Positions 27,253 to 53,234 of a stretch of 64,000 nt of DNA are shown piece by piece. The stretch's first letter is position 1, and each line of letters starts with the position of its first letter. This DNA comes from Synechococcus sp. CBW1002. Its GTDB lineage: Bacteria; Cyanobacteriota; Cyanobacteriia; PCC-6307; Cyanobiaceae. Both the position numbers and the translations under genes were made by a program. The stretch is taken from the NCBI RefSeq assembly GCF_015840915.1, contig NZ_CP060398.1, positions 3,100,001-3,164,000 of the forward strand, given 5' to 3'. Under the pieces are notes generated by a model. The model was not told the origin of the DNA. It saw only the letters and a program-made list of their open reading frames with translations, and did no database searches.

Positions 27253-29421
27253 ATGCCCAGCCCCCAGCGCTTCGCCGTTGCACAGCAGATTCAGCAACGA
27301 CAGCCGGTGGCCACCGCTCCGGTCCAGAGCCTTGAAGACCTCTGGTGCAGTGACGTGTTCACGCTCGCCAAAATGAAGGCGGCGATGCCGAAGGAGATTT
27401 TCAAGTCGGTGCAGCGCACCATCAAGGACGGCAGCAAGCTCGATGTGTCGGTGGCCAATGTGGTGGCCCAGGCCATGAAGGAATGGGCTACGGCAAGGGG
27501 TGCCCTTTATTACTCCCATGTTTTCTATCCCCTCACCAACTCCACGGCCGAAAAACATGATGGTTTCATCTCTCCCCAGGGAGATGGCAGCGCCATCACG
27601 GAATTCACCGGCAAGTTGCTGGTGCAGGGCGAGCCGGATGGTTCTTCGTTCCCCAATGGCGGCATCCGCTCCACCTTCGAGGCCCGCGGCTACACCGCCT
27701 GGGACATCACCAGTCCGGCCTATCTGATGGAGACGCCCAATGGCGTCACCCTCTGCATCCCCACCGTCTTCGTCTCCTGGACGGGCGAGGCCCTCGACAA
27801 GAAGACCCCTCTGCTCCGCTCCAATGCCGCTGTCAATGCCCAGGCCCAGCGGCTGCTGGGTCTCCTGGGCGAAACCGACATCGCTCAGGTGAACTCCAGC
27901 TGTGGCGCGGAGCAGGAGTATTTCCTGATCGATAATGCCTATCTGCCTCTGCGCCCCGACCTCCTGCTGGCAGGTCGCACCCTGTTCGGCAAGTCGTCTG
28001 CCAAGGGCCAGCAGTTCGATGACCACTACTTCGGCGCGATCCCCGAACGGGTGCAGGTGTTCATGCAGGACGTGGAGCGTCAGCTCTACAAGCTCGGCAT
28101 TCCCGCCAAGACCCGCCATAACGAGGTGGCTCCCTCCCAGTTCGAGATTGCTCCTTATTTTGAGGCGGCCAATGTAGCCACCGACCACCAGCAGCTGACC
28201 ATGACCGTGCTGCGCAACACGGCCAAGAAGCACGGCATGGTGTGCCTGCTGCATGAAAAGCCCTTTGCCGGCATCAACGGCTCCGGCAAACATGTCAACT
28301 GGTCGATCGGCAACGCAACCCAGGGCAACCTCCTCGATCCCGGCAACACGCCTCACGAGAATCTGCAGTTCCTGCTGTTCTGCGGTGCGGTGATCCGAGG
28401 TGTCCATCTCTATGGTCCACTGTTGCGGGCGGTGATCGCCACGGCCAGCAACGACCACCGTCTTGGGGCCAACGAAGCACCCCCGGCGATCATTTCGGTC
28501 TATCTGGGGAGTCAGCTTGAGGATGTGTTCAACCAGATCCGTGAGGGACGCCTGAGTAGTTCATCCATCGGCGGAATGATGGATTTCGGTGTGGCGACCC
28601 TTCCCGAATTCCCCAAGGATGCCGGCGACCGCAACCGCACGTCTCCCTTTGCCTTCACCGGTAATCGCTTCGAATTCCGTGCCGTGGGCTCGGGCCAGTC
28701 TGTGGCTGGACCGCTGGTGTCTCTGAACACGATTCTGGCCGATTCACTGGCCTGGGTGTCCGATCAGCTGGAAGCCAAGCTGTCCAGTGGAACCTCCGTG
28801 GAAGAAGCCAGTCTGGTTGTGCTCAAAGAGGTCATGGAGAAGCACGGCAACGTGGTCTTCGGTGGCGATGGCTATTCCGATGCCTGGCATCGCATGGCTG
28901 TTGAAGAGCGTGGTCTTGAGAATCTTCGTACCACAGCGGATGCCCTGCCGGTGTTGCAACGTGCTTCCACTCGTGAACTGTTTGAGCACACCGGTGTGCT
29001 GACACCGGTCGAACTGGAGAGCCGATTCGAGGTCTACGCAGAGCAATATATTCTTGCGATTGAAGTGGAAGCCAAGCTGGCCGTGCAGATTGCCCGGTCT
29101 CAGATTTACCCTGCCGCCATGCGCTATCTGGGTGAATTGGCTGGCTCGCTGCAGTTGCAGACCGCCATGGGCCTGCAGGTGTCTCCCGAAACCCAGAATG
29201 CGGTTGCCTCCCTCAGCCAGACCTTGATGGAAGTCAGTGGCTCCCTCCAGACGGCGATTGATCAGCCCCCCCACGGCACCGAGGCCCACATGCGGCACTG
29301 TGCTGAAACACTGCTTCCCTTGATGTCAGACCTGCGCACTGCAGTGGATGGGCTGGAAGCCCTGGTGGACGACAATCTCTGGCCCCTGCCTTCCTACCAG
29401 GAGATGCTGTTCTTGCGTTGA
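27253..29421 (+). CDS. glnN: glutamine synthetase type III
   Basis: ATP-dependent ligation of ammonia to glutamate. The ~722-residue length and sequence mark GSIII (GlnN), not the ~470-residue GSI. Seen in order: the start [34 protein letters not shown], the metal-ligand region [13 protein letters not shown] with both glutamates, [17 protein letters not shown], the active-site [18 protein letters not shown] and [17 protein letters not shown]. All metal-ligand motifs look intact. Cyanobacterial glnN is typically NtcA-controlled and induced by nitrogen starvation; a clean GTA-N8-TAC box was not found here. ATG 27253 fits the family; ATG 27223, after a GGAGAGGGAGG stretch, is an alternative. Confidence 0.95.
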
Positions 29422-48614: not shown

Positions 48615-49673
48615 TCAGAGCGGTTTGCGGGCGGTCCAGACGCGGGTCATGAAATGGGATTCGGCAGCAATGTCTTCGAATCCGGCCTCCGTCAGCCGTG
48701 CGTCGATGTCGTCCTCGATGTAGTGCCGGAAGTAAGGCTCGTGGAAGACCCGCCGGAAATTCTCCATCGGCGCGGCGAACTCCGGCGAATCGTTCAGCTG
48801 CACCGAATCCGCCAGCACCAGCACGCCACCGGGCTCCAGCACCCGCTGGATCTCGTAGAGCACGGCCTGCCTTGCCGACCCCGGCAACTCATGCAGCAGA
48901 AACACGCAGGTGGCGCCCTGCAGGCTGGCCTCAGCGAAGGGCAGCGTTTCGGCATTGCCCTGGATCAGCTGGGGCAGCTCGCCAGGCAGCTCGGCGAGCC
49001 AGCGATTGGCCTGCCGCAGGTAAGCGGTGGAAAGATCGATGCCGATCAACTGGGCCTTGGGCAGGGCACCACGCAGCTGGCGCAGGGTGCGACCGGTACC
49101 GGTGGCCACGTCGAGCACCCGCAGGCAGCCCGGGGGCCGATCGGTGAAGGCCTTGAGGCCCTGAACCAGGGGGCCGAGGACCCGTCGCCGCATCGGATCG
49201 GCGGTGCCGTTGAACAACAGCTCCACCTGCAGGTCATACAGGGCGGCGGAGTGGTCGCTGAGGTAACCGTCGGTCTGGTGATGGAAATTCTGGAGGTAGT
49301 AGTCCGGGTAGGCAGCGGGATCGATGGTGCGAGGCAGGTCGCGCACCTTCCGCTCCCGGCGGCGGGTCCAGGTGGCCGGAATATCGAGCCAGATCAGCGG
49401 GTACCGGCTGGCCCAGTCAAGCCAGGGGGCATCGAACAGCAGGGAGGCCGGATAGAGGCCCTGTTCCGCTTCCTGCCAGTCCCGATCCAGCAGACGTTGC
49501 ATCGATGCCTGCAGCATGGCCAGCAGGGCCGGTGGCACCGGCACCGTGCGGGCGCTGACCTCAGGACTGATCAGGTCCATGAGGCGGCTGCTCACTTCCT
49601 TGTGGGCCAGCCCGACCAGACTCTTGCCCTGCTGCAGGGTGTGATAAGCCAGCTTGCTGAGCTGATCGGACAT
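48615..49673 (-). CDS. class I SAM-dependent methyltransferase
   Basis: 352 residues from ATG 49673 (MSDQLSKLAYHTLQQGK). A cyanobacterial-type N-terminal ~120 residues, with a YYLQNFHHQTDGYLSD block before the core, is followed by the Rossmann methyltransferase domain: motif I LDVATGTGRTLRQL, acidic motif IGIDLSTAYL, motif II NAETLPFAEASLQGATCVF and post-motif VLEPGGVLVLADS. The substrate cannot be told; the order resembles ubiquinone/menaquinone-type C-methyltransferases. A perfect palindrome sits 29 bp upstream of the ATG. Confidence 0.85.
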   Translation of the reverse strand: MSDQLSKLAYHTLQQGKSLVGLAHKEVSSRLMDLISPEVSARTVPVPPALLAMLQASMQRLLDRDWQEAEQGLYPASLLFDAPWLDWASRYPLIWLDIPATWTRRRERKVRDLPRTIDPAAYPDYYLQNFHHQTDGYLSDHSAALYDLQVELLFNGTADPMRRRVLGPLVQGLKAFTDRPPGCLRVLDVATGTGRTLRQLRGALPKAQLIGIDLSTAYLRQANRWLAELPGELPQLIQGNAETLPFAEASLQGATCVFLLHELPGSARQAVLYEIQRVLEPGGVLVLADSVQLNDSPEFAAPMENFRRVFHEPYFRHYIEDDIDARLTEAGFEDIAAESHFMTRVWTARKPL

Positions 49674-49701
49674 GGAAGGGCCGAAGCGACAACGTCTGGG
49701 T

Positions 49702-49723
49702 GCATTCCAACGGATTGGAATGC
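49702..49723. promoter_or_regulatory. perfect palindrome upstream of the methyltransferase gene
   Basis: GCATTCCAA (49702-49710) and TTGGAATGC (49715-49723) are exact inverted repeats separated by four bases. The site is 29 bp from the ATG at 49673, an operator-like location. Farther upstream CCTGATCCGT occurs twice (49777-49786 and 49790-49799). The lack of a T-run on the minus strand argues against a terminator. Confidence 0.45.
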
Positions 49724-49876
49724 TCATCCGTGAGCCAGGATCCTGATCAGCTTCGCGATCGGATCCGTTCCTGAGACCTGATCCGTACACCTGATCCGTT
49801 TTGAGATCTGCTCAGACTTGCGCTCTGCAATGCCCTGGGATGCGAGGTTTCCTGCGATGCCATCAAGCCTCAGGCT

Positions 49877-51253
49877 TCAGATGTCGTAGTAGAGGCTGAA
49901 TTCGTAGGGGTGGGGGCGCTGACGCAGCTGCTGCACCTCCGCGTGCTTGATCGCGATCCAGTTGGCGACGAAATCCTCGCTGAACACGCCGCCCGCCAGC
50001 AGGTAGTCCTGGTCAGCCTCTAGGGCCTCGAGAGCGCCACTGAGGGAGGCCGGAAGCGATGCAATTCTGGCCCGTTGATCGGCCGGAAGTGCGATCAGAT
50101 CCCCATCGATGCCGTCACCGGGATCGATCTGGTTCCTGATTCCATCCAGTCCGGCCATCAGCATCGCCGAGAAGGCAAGGTAGGGATTGGCCAGGCCATC
50201 GCCGGATCGGAACTCCAGCCGTTTGGCCCTGGGGCTGGGGCCCGTGATCGGAATGCGGACGGCCGCTGAGCGGTTGCCCTGGGAATACACCAGGTTCACC
50301 GGCGCTGCGAAGCCCGACACCAGACGCCTGTAACTGTTCGTGCCCGGGTTGGTGAAGGCCAGAACGCTGGGCGCATGGCGCAGCAGACCGCCGATGTACC
50401 AGCGAGCGGTCTGGGAGAGGTTGGCGTAGGTGCCCTCCCCGAAGAACAGGGGCTGGCCAGCCTTCCAGAGACTCTGGTGGACAGGCAGTCCAGAGCCGTT
50501 CGCGCCAAAGACTGGCTGCGGCATGAAAGTGGCCGACCGTCCATATTTTCTGGCCAGTTTGCGCACCACATAGCGGGTGATCATCAGGTTGTCCGCCGCG
50601 CTGATCAACTCCGCATCCTTCATGCCCAGTGCGTGCTGCCCCGATGCCGTCACCGCATGGTGATGCTTGTCCATCGGAACCCCGAGTGAGCCCAGCAACA
50701 GCACCATCTCGCTGCGCAAGTCCTGATCGGCGTCGCTGCGGTTGCCGCCGTCGTCGACGTGGCCCTGGTTCCAGGCAGCCTCAATCGACTCGATGCTGTA
50801 GGAGCAGCCCGCCTCGCTGGAGCTGTAGCGCACGTCGTCAAAGAGGAAGAATTCCGGTTGGGGCGCGAAGTACGCCGTGTCGGCAAGACCGGTCGAGCCC
50901 AGATAGGTGAAGGCCCTCTGGGCCAGGGAGCGGGGACAGCGGCCTGTGGGCTTGGCGCTGCGGGGCTCCTGGATGGAACAGATCAGGCTGAGGGTCCTGT
51001 GGCTTTGGAAGGGATCAATCCAGGCGGTGCCGGGATCGGGCACCAAGGCGATCGCTGAGTCCTGAACCGGATTCCAGCCGCGGAATACCGAACCGTCCCA
51101 GGCGAGCCCGTCGGCAAAAGCCCGGGCGTTGACCTGGTCAGCGCACACGGTGAGGTGCTGCCATCTGCCATGAAGATCAGCGACTTTGAGGTCGATCAGT
51201 TCGATTCCCTCGTCCTTGATCTGGCTCAGAACGTCCCGGGCGGTTTGGGCCAT
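49877..51253 (-). CDS. glutamine synthetase-like protein with lost active-site residues (pseudoenzyme)
   Basis: 458 residues from ATG 51253, aligning throughout with cyanobacterial type I GlnA (~473 residues). Substitutions relative to Salmonella GS numbering: metal ligand E129 is Gln132 (APQPEFF), E212 is Ala200 and E220 is Ala208 (KHHHAVTASGQHALGM), H269 is Pro257 (GSGLPVHQS), and flap E327 is Ala316 (VSGFAAPV). E131 (Glu134), E357 (Glu347) and the NRSAAVR arginine region remain. A loop of about 18 residues before the QDLRSEM segment (normally with YFPVSPxDTSQD) is missing, and the adenylylation-type Tyr near NLYDLP is Ile. The frame is intact and otherwise well kept. Synthetase activity is unlikely; a regulatory or dodecamer-modulating role is inference. 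Confidence 0.9.
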   Translation of the reverse strand: MAQTARDVLSQIKDEGIELIDLKVADLHGRWQHLTVCADQVNARAFADGLAWDGSVFRGWNPVQDSAIALVPDPGTAWIDPFQSHRTLSLICSIQEPRSAKPTGRCPRSLAQRAFTYLGSTGLADTAYFAPQPEFFLFDDVRYSSSEAGCSYSIESIEAAWNQGHVDDGGNRSDADQDLRSEMVLLLGSLGVPMDKHHHAVTASGQHALGMKDAELISAADNLMITRYVVRKLARKYGRSATFMPQPVFGANGSGLPVHQSLWKAGQPLFFGEGTYANLSQTARWYIGGLLRHAPSVLAFTNPGTNSYRRLVSGFAAPVNLVYSQGNRSAAVRIPITGPSPRAKRLEFRSGDGLANPYLAFSAMLMAGLDGIRNQIDPGDGIDGDLIALPADQRARIASLPASLSGALEALEADQDYLLAGGVFSEDFVANWIAIKHAEVQQLRQRPHPYEFSLYYDI

Positions 51254-51457
51254 GACGAAGTGGTGGGGGGAGCCCGCGCAGACCACGGGTTGACTGAACG
51301 GTAGGGATCGCCCCGAAGCTCACTCGCCAGGTCTGGTCCGATGGCGCCACTTTGCGTAACCGTTTCTGTCAAGTTGCCGAGAACGCGCCTGGCAGCAGGA
51401 ATGTTGCCGGTTGGTGAGTGCTAGTTTCCGCTGCAGGTGCGTCGATCCACAACACCC

Positions 51458-51988
51458 ATGCGCGATGCCATCACTGGTTTGATCGGCCGCTACGACCAGC
51501 TCGGTCGTTATTTCGATCGCGATGCCATCGACCGCATCAAGGGCTTTTACTCCCAGTCCGCCCTTCGTCTGGCGGCCGTGGAGCTGATCAACCGAGACGC
51601 CGCCGAGATCGTTCGCGAAGCCTCGCAACGGCTCTGGAAAGAGGATCCTGAACTGATCCTGCCGGGAGGAAATGCTTACACCACCCGTCGTCTGGCCGCC
51701 TGTCTGCGGGACATGGACTATTTCCTCCGTTATGCCAGCTACGCCCTGATCGCTGACGACGCCACGATCCTCAACGAACGGGTGCTCAACGGTCTCGACG
51801 ACACGTACAAGAGCCTTGGGGTTCCCACCGGTCCCACCGTCCGGGGGATCGCCCTGCTGGGCGAGGTGGTGTGTGAACAATTGTCCGAGGCCGGAGTTGC
51901 TGAGGCGGCCGTGCTGGCCTCGGTCGTGAAGGCTCCTTTTGATCACCTCTGCCGTGGTCTGGCCTCCACCAACGTGCGTGCCCGCTGA
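51458..51988 (+). CDS. apcF: allophycocyanin beta-18 subunit
   Basis: Core phycobilisome subunit that replaces one ApcB in the basal cylinders next to the terminal emitter. 176 residues from ATG 51458 (MRDAITGLIGRYDQLG). The chromophore Cys82 is in RRLAACLRDMDYFLRY, and Asn72 (GGNAYTTRR, the site of gamma-N-methylation in beta subunits) is kept. SLGVPTGPTVRGI near residue ~120 fits ApcF. It is divergent from the GS-like gene with a 204-bp gap, and pcyA lies elsewhere in this window. Confidence 0.93.
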   Translation: MRDAITGLIGRYDQLGRYFDRDAIDRIKGFYSQSALRLAAVELINRDAAEIVREASQRLWKEDPELILPGGNAYTTRRLAACLRDMDYFLRYASYALIADDATILNERVLNGLDDTYKSLGVPTGPTVRGIALLGEVVCEQLSEAGVAEAAVLASVVKAPFDHLCRGLASTNVRAR

Positions 51989-52043: not shown

Positions 52044-53234
52044 TTGGTCTCCACTCCTGCCCGTCCGCCCGTCGGCGATCACCAGCTCAGCGAAGCTCAC
52101 CGCTGCACGCTCGGCCCGATCGCCACACCGGATCGTCTTCTGCTCGGACCCGGGCCCTCCAATGCCCATCCCACGGTGCTTCAGGCCCTGTCCCGGACGC
52201 CAATCGGCCATCTCGATCCGCTCTACGTGGAGTTGATGGGCGAGGTGCAGGAGCTTCTGCGCTACGCCTGGCAGACCGACAATCGCCTCACCATTCCGAT
52301 GAGCGGCACCGGCAGTGCCGCCATGGAAGCCACCCTGGCCAACACGGTGGAACCGGGTGACAAGGTGTTGGTGGCCGTGAAGGGCTACTTCGGCCTCCGA
52401 CTGGCGGATATGGCCGGCCGCTACCGGGCGGAGGTGGCCACGATCGAACGCCCCTGGGGCGAGGCGTTCACCCTGGAGGAGATCGAGGCGGCGCTGCAAC
52501 ACCATCGCCCCGCCATCCTGGCGATGGTGCATGCCGAAACCTCCACCGGGGTCTGCCAGCCCATGGAGGGCATCGGTGAGCTCTGCCGGCAATACGACTG
52601 CCTGCTCCTGCTCGACACCGTGACCTCCCTGGGGGCGATCCCCGTCTTCCTGGACGACTGGAAGGTGGATCTGGCCTACAGCTGTAGCCAGAAGGGCCTC
52701 AGCTGCCCTCCAGGCCTCGGTCCCTTCACCATGGGGCCCCGGGCCGAGGCCAAACTGGCGGCCCGGCCGGACAAGGTGCCGAACTGGTATCTCGACGTGA
52801 GCCTGCTGAACCAGTACTGGGGCAGCAACCGGGTGTATCACCACACCGCCCCGGTGAACATGAACTTCGGCATGCGCGAGGCGCTGCGTCTACTGGCTGA
52901 AGAGGGTCTGGAGAATGCCTGGGCCCGTCACCGGGCCAATGCGGAGCGCCTCTGGATCGGTCTGGAGCGCCTCGGTCTCGAGCCCCACGTCCCTGAAGAG
53001 CTGCGGCTGCCCACCCTCACGACCGTGCGCATTCCGGAGGGCGTGGATGGCAAGGCCTTCAGCCTCCATCTGCTCAACACCCATGGCATCGAGGTCGGTG
53101 GTGGTCTCGGTGTGCTGGCCGGCAAGGTCTGGCGCATCGGTCTGATGGGCTTCAACAGTCGCGCCGAGAACGTCGATCGGCTGCTGGATCTGTTCGAGGC
53201 CGAGCTGCCTGCCTTCCGCTCCGCCGCTGCCTGA
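52044..53234 (+). CDS. alanine--glyoxylate aminotransferase family protein (class V)
   Basis: PLP enzyme, 396 residues. RLLLGPGPSNAHPTVLQAL opens the catalytic region; MSGTGSAAMEATLANTVEPGD binds the cofactor phosphate. The PLP Asp is in CLLLLDTVTSLG and the Schiff-base Lys in YSCSQKGLSCPPG. The closing block ending VGGGLGVLAGKVWRIGLMG is standard. In cyanobacteria it probably serves photorespiratory glyoxylate amination to glycine or serine:glyoxylate transfer. The start is TTG at 52044. The 3' end overlaps tadA on the other strand by 83 bp. Confidence 0.9.
   Translation: MVSTPARPPVGDHQLSEAHRCTLGPIATPDRLLLGPGPSNAHPTVLQALSRTPIGHLDPLYVELMGEVQELLRYAWQTDNRLTIPMSGTGSAAMEATLANTVEPGDKVLVAVKGYFGLRLADMAGRYRAEVATIERPWGEAFTLEEIEAALQHHRPAILAMVHAETSTGVCQPMEGIGELCRQYDCLLLLDTVTSLGAIPVFLDDWKVDLAYSCSQKGLSCPPGLGPFTMGPRAEAKLAARPDKVPNWYLDVSLLNQYWGSNRVYHHTAPVNMNFGMREALRLLAEEGLENAWARHRANAERLWIGLERLGLEPHVPEELRLPTLTTVRIPEGVDGKAFSLHLLNTHGIEVGGGLGVLAGKVWRIGLMGFNSRAENVDRLLDLFEAELPAFRSAAA

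Follow-up and report, generated by a model that had tools for sequence, protein, structure and literature searches.

A gene in the window (the whole stretch of 64,000 nucleotides analysed here) very probably encodes a conserved pseudoenzyme, which is derived from type I glutamine synthetase (GlnA, GSI) and is kept under purifying selection. Nitrogen assimilation enters metabolism through glutamine synthetase (GS); that a GSI in bacteria appears dead and is nevertheless preserved in 22 species was unexpected. The features discussed below are collected in Table 1.

Active site and other glutamine synthetases of the genome

The open reading frame starts with an ATG at 51253, and its product is called P0001 here; an alternative upstream GTG start would give 469 aa. 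P0001 is collinear with type I GS and carries the Pfam domains Gln-synt_N and Gln-synt_C. Its homology over the full length, covering the N-terminal beta-grasp and the catalytic domain, places it in the GlnA family. It shares 68–75% identity with canonical cyanobacterial GlnA, and its nearest solved structure is Anabaena GS (3ng0). Under the NCBIfam GlnA model TIGR00653, P0001 scores over the cut-off (506.7 bits, cut-off 429.15) and is called an active type I glutamate-ammonia ligase, and this may explain why the protein has been overlooked. Because automatic annotation by this model calls an active ligase, metabolic models built on these genomes would contain an error.

We aligned P0001 with 3ng0 and with 25 canonical Cyanobiaceae GlnA proteins, which are invariant at every site considered. 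The five substitutions named in the original prediction are all real: Q132 (E129), A200 (E212), A208 (E220), P257 (H269) and A316 (flap E327). The 25 canonical proteins have all six metal ligands (E129, E131, E212, E220, H269 and E357). P0001 has kept E131 and E357, that is, one of three ligands at each metal site as had been claimed, and it does not have the six-ligand set of a type I GS. It is thus an enzyme homologue without the conserved catalytic residues. The loop deletion that had been described also exists, but its size was put at about 18 residues and is 15 residues net (458 versus 473 aa), with the Y179 segment removed. The pocket residues D50, N264, H271, R321, R339, R344, K352, R355 and R359 are still in place. 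An AlphaFold2 model, built on a shallow alignment of 22 sequences, was uninformative (mean pLDDT 35.5), so fold and oligomer are taken from homology.

The genome is a single contig of 3.85 Mb with 99.74% completeness. No canonical GlnA was found in it, and the P0001 gene is its sole GSI-type GlnA gene; the assumption that this genome encodes a canonical GlnA was therefore wrong. The remaining GS-family proteins are three paralogues at 33–37% identity and GlnN, a type III enzyme (GSIII). The glnN gene is intact and lies 22 kb from the P0001 gene inside the same window (27277 marks the start of the match and not a settled start codon); the original prediction had drawn no link between the two genes. 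GlnN of the sister genome is 96% identical, with an omega (dN/dS) of 0.08. Immediately upstream of the window glnN, a consensus NtcA site was not found. Judged from these sequences, GlnN is the likely glutamine source of the genome. One of the three paralogues passes the NCBIfam model 'type III glutamate--ammonia ligase'; the corresponding gene of the sister genome (G001:C7:20060-21286) has an internal TAG, which is not present in the copy of the window genome.

Table 1. Positions in the window of the glnA-derived gene, its neighbours and glnN.
Feature	Position	Strand	Description
Pseudoenzyme gene, glnA-derived	49877..51253	(-)	458 aa + stop; PF03951 + PF00120; metal ligands 2/6; loop deletion of 15 residues
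Best-preserved pseudoenzyme segment	50264..50491	(-)	P0001 residues ~255-330, GLPVHQSLWKAGQPLFFGEGTYANLSQTARWYIGGLLRHAPSVLAFTNPGTNSYRRL...; omega 0.15 (pair), 0.095 (g6)
Divergent intergenic region	51254..51436	(.)	Upstream region of the pseudoenzyme gene; NtcA box (GTAN8TAC) not found
Phycobilisome-family protein	51437..51988	(+)	PF00502; divergent neighbour, likewise at canonical glnA loci
Class-V aminotransferase	52044..53234	(+)	PF00266; serine/alanine-glyoxylate type by resemblance; conserved synteny
Methyltransferase	48615..49790	(-)	PF13649; adjoins glnA downstream in many relatives
glnN, type III glutamine synthetase	27277..29421	(+)	GSIII_N PF12437 + PF00120 + PF18318

Relatives and the glnA locus

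Orthologues were searched in 300–400 genomes of the family. In the window's genus (g1), two pseudoenzyme sequences are available, from the window genome (G000) and from a sister species (G001) whose orthologue is 86% identical. The sister protein shares E129Q, E212A, H269P and E327A with P0001, and at E220 it has R instead of A; orthologues with the same five substitutions had been proposed as a check, and the sister agrees at four of the five. Its loop is rewritten and not deleted. A further 20 pseudoenzyme species were found in two other genera (17 in g6 and 3 in g37), all with full-length, open frames, so that the open frame claimed for the window gene is confirmed both here and in its orthologues. 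In these 20 species the loss hits the same set of sites and leaves 0–2 of the six ligands. Since the sister has four of the same losses and the 20 species lose the same sites, the loss pattern goes beyond chance. The g37 proteins are strongly diverged, and the canonical GlnA alignment covers only part of their length. In a scan of genome contigs, the 80 matches listed (own genome excluded) all have at most 72% identity and are canonical at the tested sites. Named relatives among the GlnA matches are Vulcanococcus, Cyanobium, Synechococcus and Prochlorococcus, and the family is called Cyanobiaceae here on the basis of these names.

P0001 could still be a ligase or transferase whose use of substrate or metal has changed, and the retention of E131, E357 and many pocket residues would agree with this. 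However, four of the six metal ligands, the flap glutamate and the Y179 loop are missing in P0001, 4–6 of the six ligands are lost across all 22 species, and the pocket beyond the metal ligands also erodes in relatives. We regard such an altered activity as very unlikely.

The GSIII search detected GlnN in all 22 pseudoenzyme-bearing genomes, and canonical GlnA was found in none of them. The original prediction suggested that the protein is a regulatory subunit of mixed dodecamers with canonical GlnA. With the canonical partner absent from the window genome and from every other pseudoenzyme-bearing genome, and with no point in its favour, this suggestion can practically be dismissed. One genome of the family (G299, family f1, 99% complete) was matched by neither the GlnA nor the GlnN query, which reflects either an assembly gap or a true absence.

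In canonical and pseudoenzyme genomes alike, the gene has the genes for the phycobilisome-family protein and the class-V aminotransferase beside it, often with the methyltransferase gene downstream. As these neighbours are common to both, the pseudoenzyme gene is the ancestral glnA changed in place. Other fates of the locus were also observed. The glnA spot is empty, by clean deletion, in the GlnN-bearing relatives G048, G107, G032 and G079. At the same locus, G051, a relative of a canonical-GlnA species, has a frameshifted glnA with internal stops (G051:C2:33259-34664). Deletion or frameshifting of glnA in these relatives means that some lineages can do without the protein. One family thus offers, at one locus, a natural series of active, freshly inactive (the window gene), long inactive, frameshifted and deleted glnA. 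This series makes the question of GlnA roles besides catalysis testable in cultured picocyanobacteria.

Selection on the reading frame

Codon models gave an omega of 0.252 for the 17 g6 species and 0.239 for the 3 g37 species, compared with 0.036 for canonical GlnA. Models with omega set to 1 were worse by 353 (g6) and 50 (g37) log-likelihood units. For the G000/G001 pair, the NG86 omega was 0.35, lower than in any of 1000 neutral simulations (mean 0.94, minimum 0.48), and the simulated pair was stop-free in just 4.5% of cases. On the g6 tree, neutral simulation led us to expect about 61 stops, and none was observed; a mean of 0.5 of 17 tips stayed open, and all 17 are open in reality. These simulations used simple models without indels. 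The catalytic losses are common to the two sequences of this pair, and therefore the constraint acted after inactivation. The purifying selection that had been predicted is thus borne out by the dN/dS check (omega 0.24–0.35, well under 1, with orthologues present).

The constraint is distributed unevenly along the protein. In the G000/G001 pair, omega was 0.17 for residues 1–100, 0.15 for residues 261–330 and 1.04 for the former loop (151–190). In the 17 g6 species, the lowest value (0.095) was found at canonical positions 271–312, and positions 401–440 reached 0.44. The best-preserved segment has 72–96% canonical identity in all three groups, and its retained core is VxQSLW-AGQPLF-GEGTY-LSQTARWYIGGLL. 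Codon models, simulations and regional omega values all indicate that selection was maintained after the catalytic loss.

Could the gene be a pseudogene that decays slowly and has so far escaped stop codons, with high G+C contributing? The constraint is indeed weaker, by a factor of about 7–10, than that on canonical GlnA, and the other genes of the G000/G001 pair are also more strongly constrained (omega 0.08–0.18). Moreover, the frameshift and the clean deletions described above are real cases of glnA decay among GlnN-bearing relatives. However, the rejection of omega = 1 in both genera, the number of open frames on the g6 tree and the low omega of the window pair all stand against it. Purely neutral decay is ruled out by the codon models and the simulations, and slow decay in general appears improbable. 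A conserved pseudoenzyme remains our preferred reading.

Regulation, origin and possible role

We scanned upstream regions for the NtcA box, accepting an exact GTAN8TAC or one mismatch together with a −10 element at the right distance. The box was found upstream of 15 of the 17 sampled canonical glnA genes and in none of the 22 pseudoenzyme upstream regions. Of the canonical genes in the gene tree, the two without a box (L020 and L026, in G083 and G075) lie closest to the pseudoenzymes, and they possibly represent an intermediate state. The glutamine riboswitch RF01739 was surveyed in small numbers of genomes: it is present in all 4 of the sampled canonical g6 genomes, absent from 8 of 8 pseudoenzyme g6 genomes sampled and from both g1 genomes, and weakly present in 2 of 3 g37 pseudoenzyme genomes. 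Binding of GIF-type regulators had also been suggested. A query with an IF7 sequence gave no match in 26 genomes, but it was run without a positive control and so is uninformative. The riboswitch, too, is absent in g1 and in the sampled g6 pseudoenzyme genomes, unlike in canonical g6, and so the suggestion finds no support. At several of the riboswitch loci (L230–L237, in G162, G261, G242, G062, G076, G037, G192 and G075), a small YRG-repeat protein follows, which looks like DUF4278 by its sequence.

The GlnA tree groups all 22 pseudoenzymes with support of 100/98, and the grouping persists with each group left out, but long branches meet. In trees of neighbouring genes, the carriers fall into three positions, with the g6 carriers within canonical g6. 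In AU tests, trees that match the three-position placement were not rejected (p-AU 0.08 and 0.24). At 10 of the 20 sites altered in both g1 and g6, the new residue is identical, and the changes are mostly conservative. The origin may be either single with gene exchange or parallel. A broader possibility, which we put forward as speculative, is that GSIII replaces GSI in Cyanobiaceae and glnA repeatedly becomes a non-catalytic nitrogen regulator or scaffold, in parallel in three lineages.

The following course of events may be proposed. GlnN would have taken over glutamine synthesis, so that glnA was no longer needed for catalysis. The resident glnA would then have been converted in place, with loss of catalysis and of nitrogen-control transcription through the NtcA box. 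The inactive protein presumably keeps its fold and probably forms GS-like rings, because constraint is strongest on the beta-grasp and the C-terminal barrel helix, and the central-channel loop and active-site lids vary freely. It would act, most likely within nitrogen control, by binding a partner protein or by serving as a scaffold. That it has a non-catalytic function of some kind is, from the sequence comparisons, probable. Specific binding of a nitrogen-control partner is a more tentative proposal that we would not yet favour, and the link to nitrogen control is a guess from ancestry.

The role might also be a remnant of moonlighting by the ancestral GlnA and not newly gained, which is a sub-case of the explanation above. 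Bacterial GS can moonlight as a regulator: the Bacillus subtilis enzyme does so via TnrA/GlnR. The conservation of the same segment in three separately placed lineages is consistent with such a remnant. However, the clean glnA deletions in other lineages show that the role is not universal, and the literature searched contained no report of moonlighting by GlnA of Cyanobiaceae. We consider this origin of the role possible, though rather unlikely. The B. subtilis enzyme resembles the window protein as proposed here, a GS-fold protein working through protein binding; it is, however, catalytically active, whereas P0001 is predicted to be inactive.

Compared with canonical cyanobacterial GlnA, the window gene has the same locus, the same neighbours and high identity, but it lacks the catalytic residues, the NtcA box and the Y179 loop. 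In the open-access literature, we found no paper on a cyanobacterial GS pseudoenzyme or a retained inactive GlnA, and within this limited search the GlnA-derived pseudoenzyme is apparently undescribed so far. A comparative study reported glnA in all picocyanobacteria but SC5.3 (PMC9361551). Pseudanabaena PCC 6903 and Synechococcus RS9917 have GlnN only and no active GSI, and glnA is reported absent there (PMC6316151). The window genome is similar to them in relying, as it seems, on GSIII as the GS, but it keeps an inactive protein.

The closest analogue is a non-catalytic relic in the lens of vertebrates. According to the passage on it in PMC2667176 (citing Wyatt 2006 and Grassi 2006), lengsin (GLULD1/LGSN) is an inactive class-I GS relic that was kept after another GS type took over. 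Here, too, another GS type (GlnN) is present, and the lengsin structure 2j9i matched P0001 by sequence. However, lengsin is eukaryotic, lens-specific and changed in its N-terminal region, whereas the window protein is bacterial, much nearer to active GlnA and still in the glnA locus. Because the pseudoenzymes are placed among Cyanobiaceae GlnA (with the support given above) and at the glnA locus, an origin separate from lengsin is, on sequence grounds, near certain.

Outside the family, a class-level sample contained intermediate GlnA matches (E ~1e-107 to 1e-134) in G401, G463, G514, G663, G571, G576, G587, G595, G597 and G604. These may be fragments, other GS types or more pseudoenzymes.
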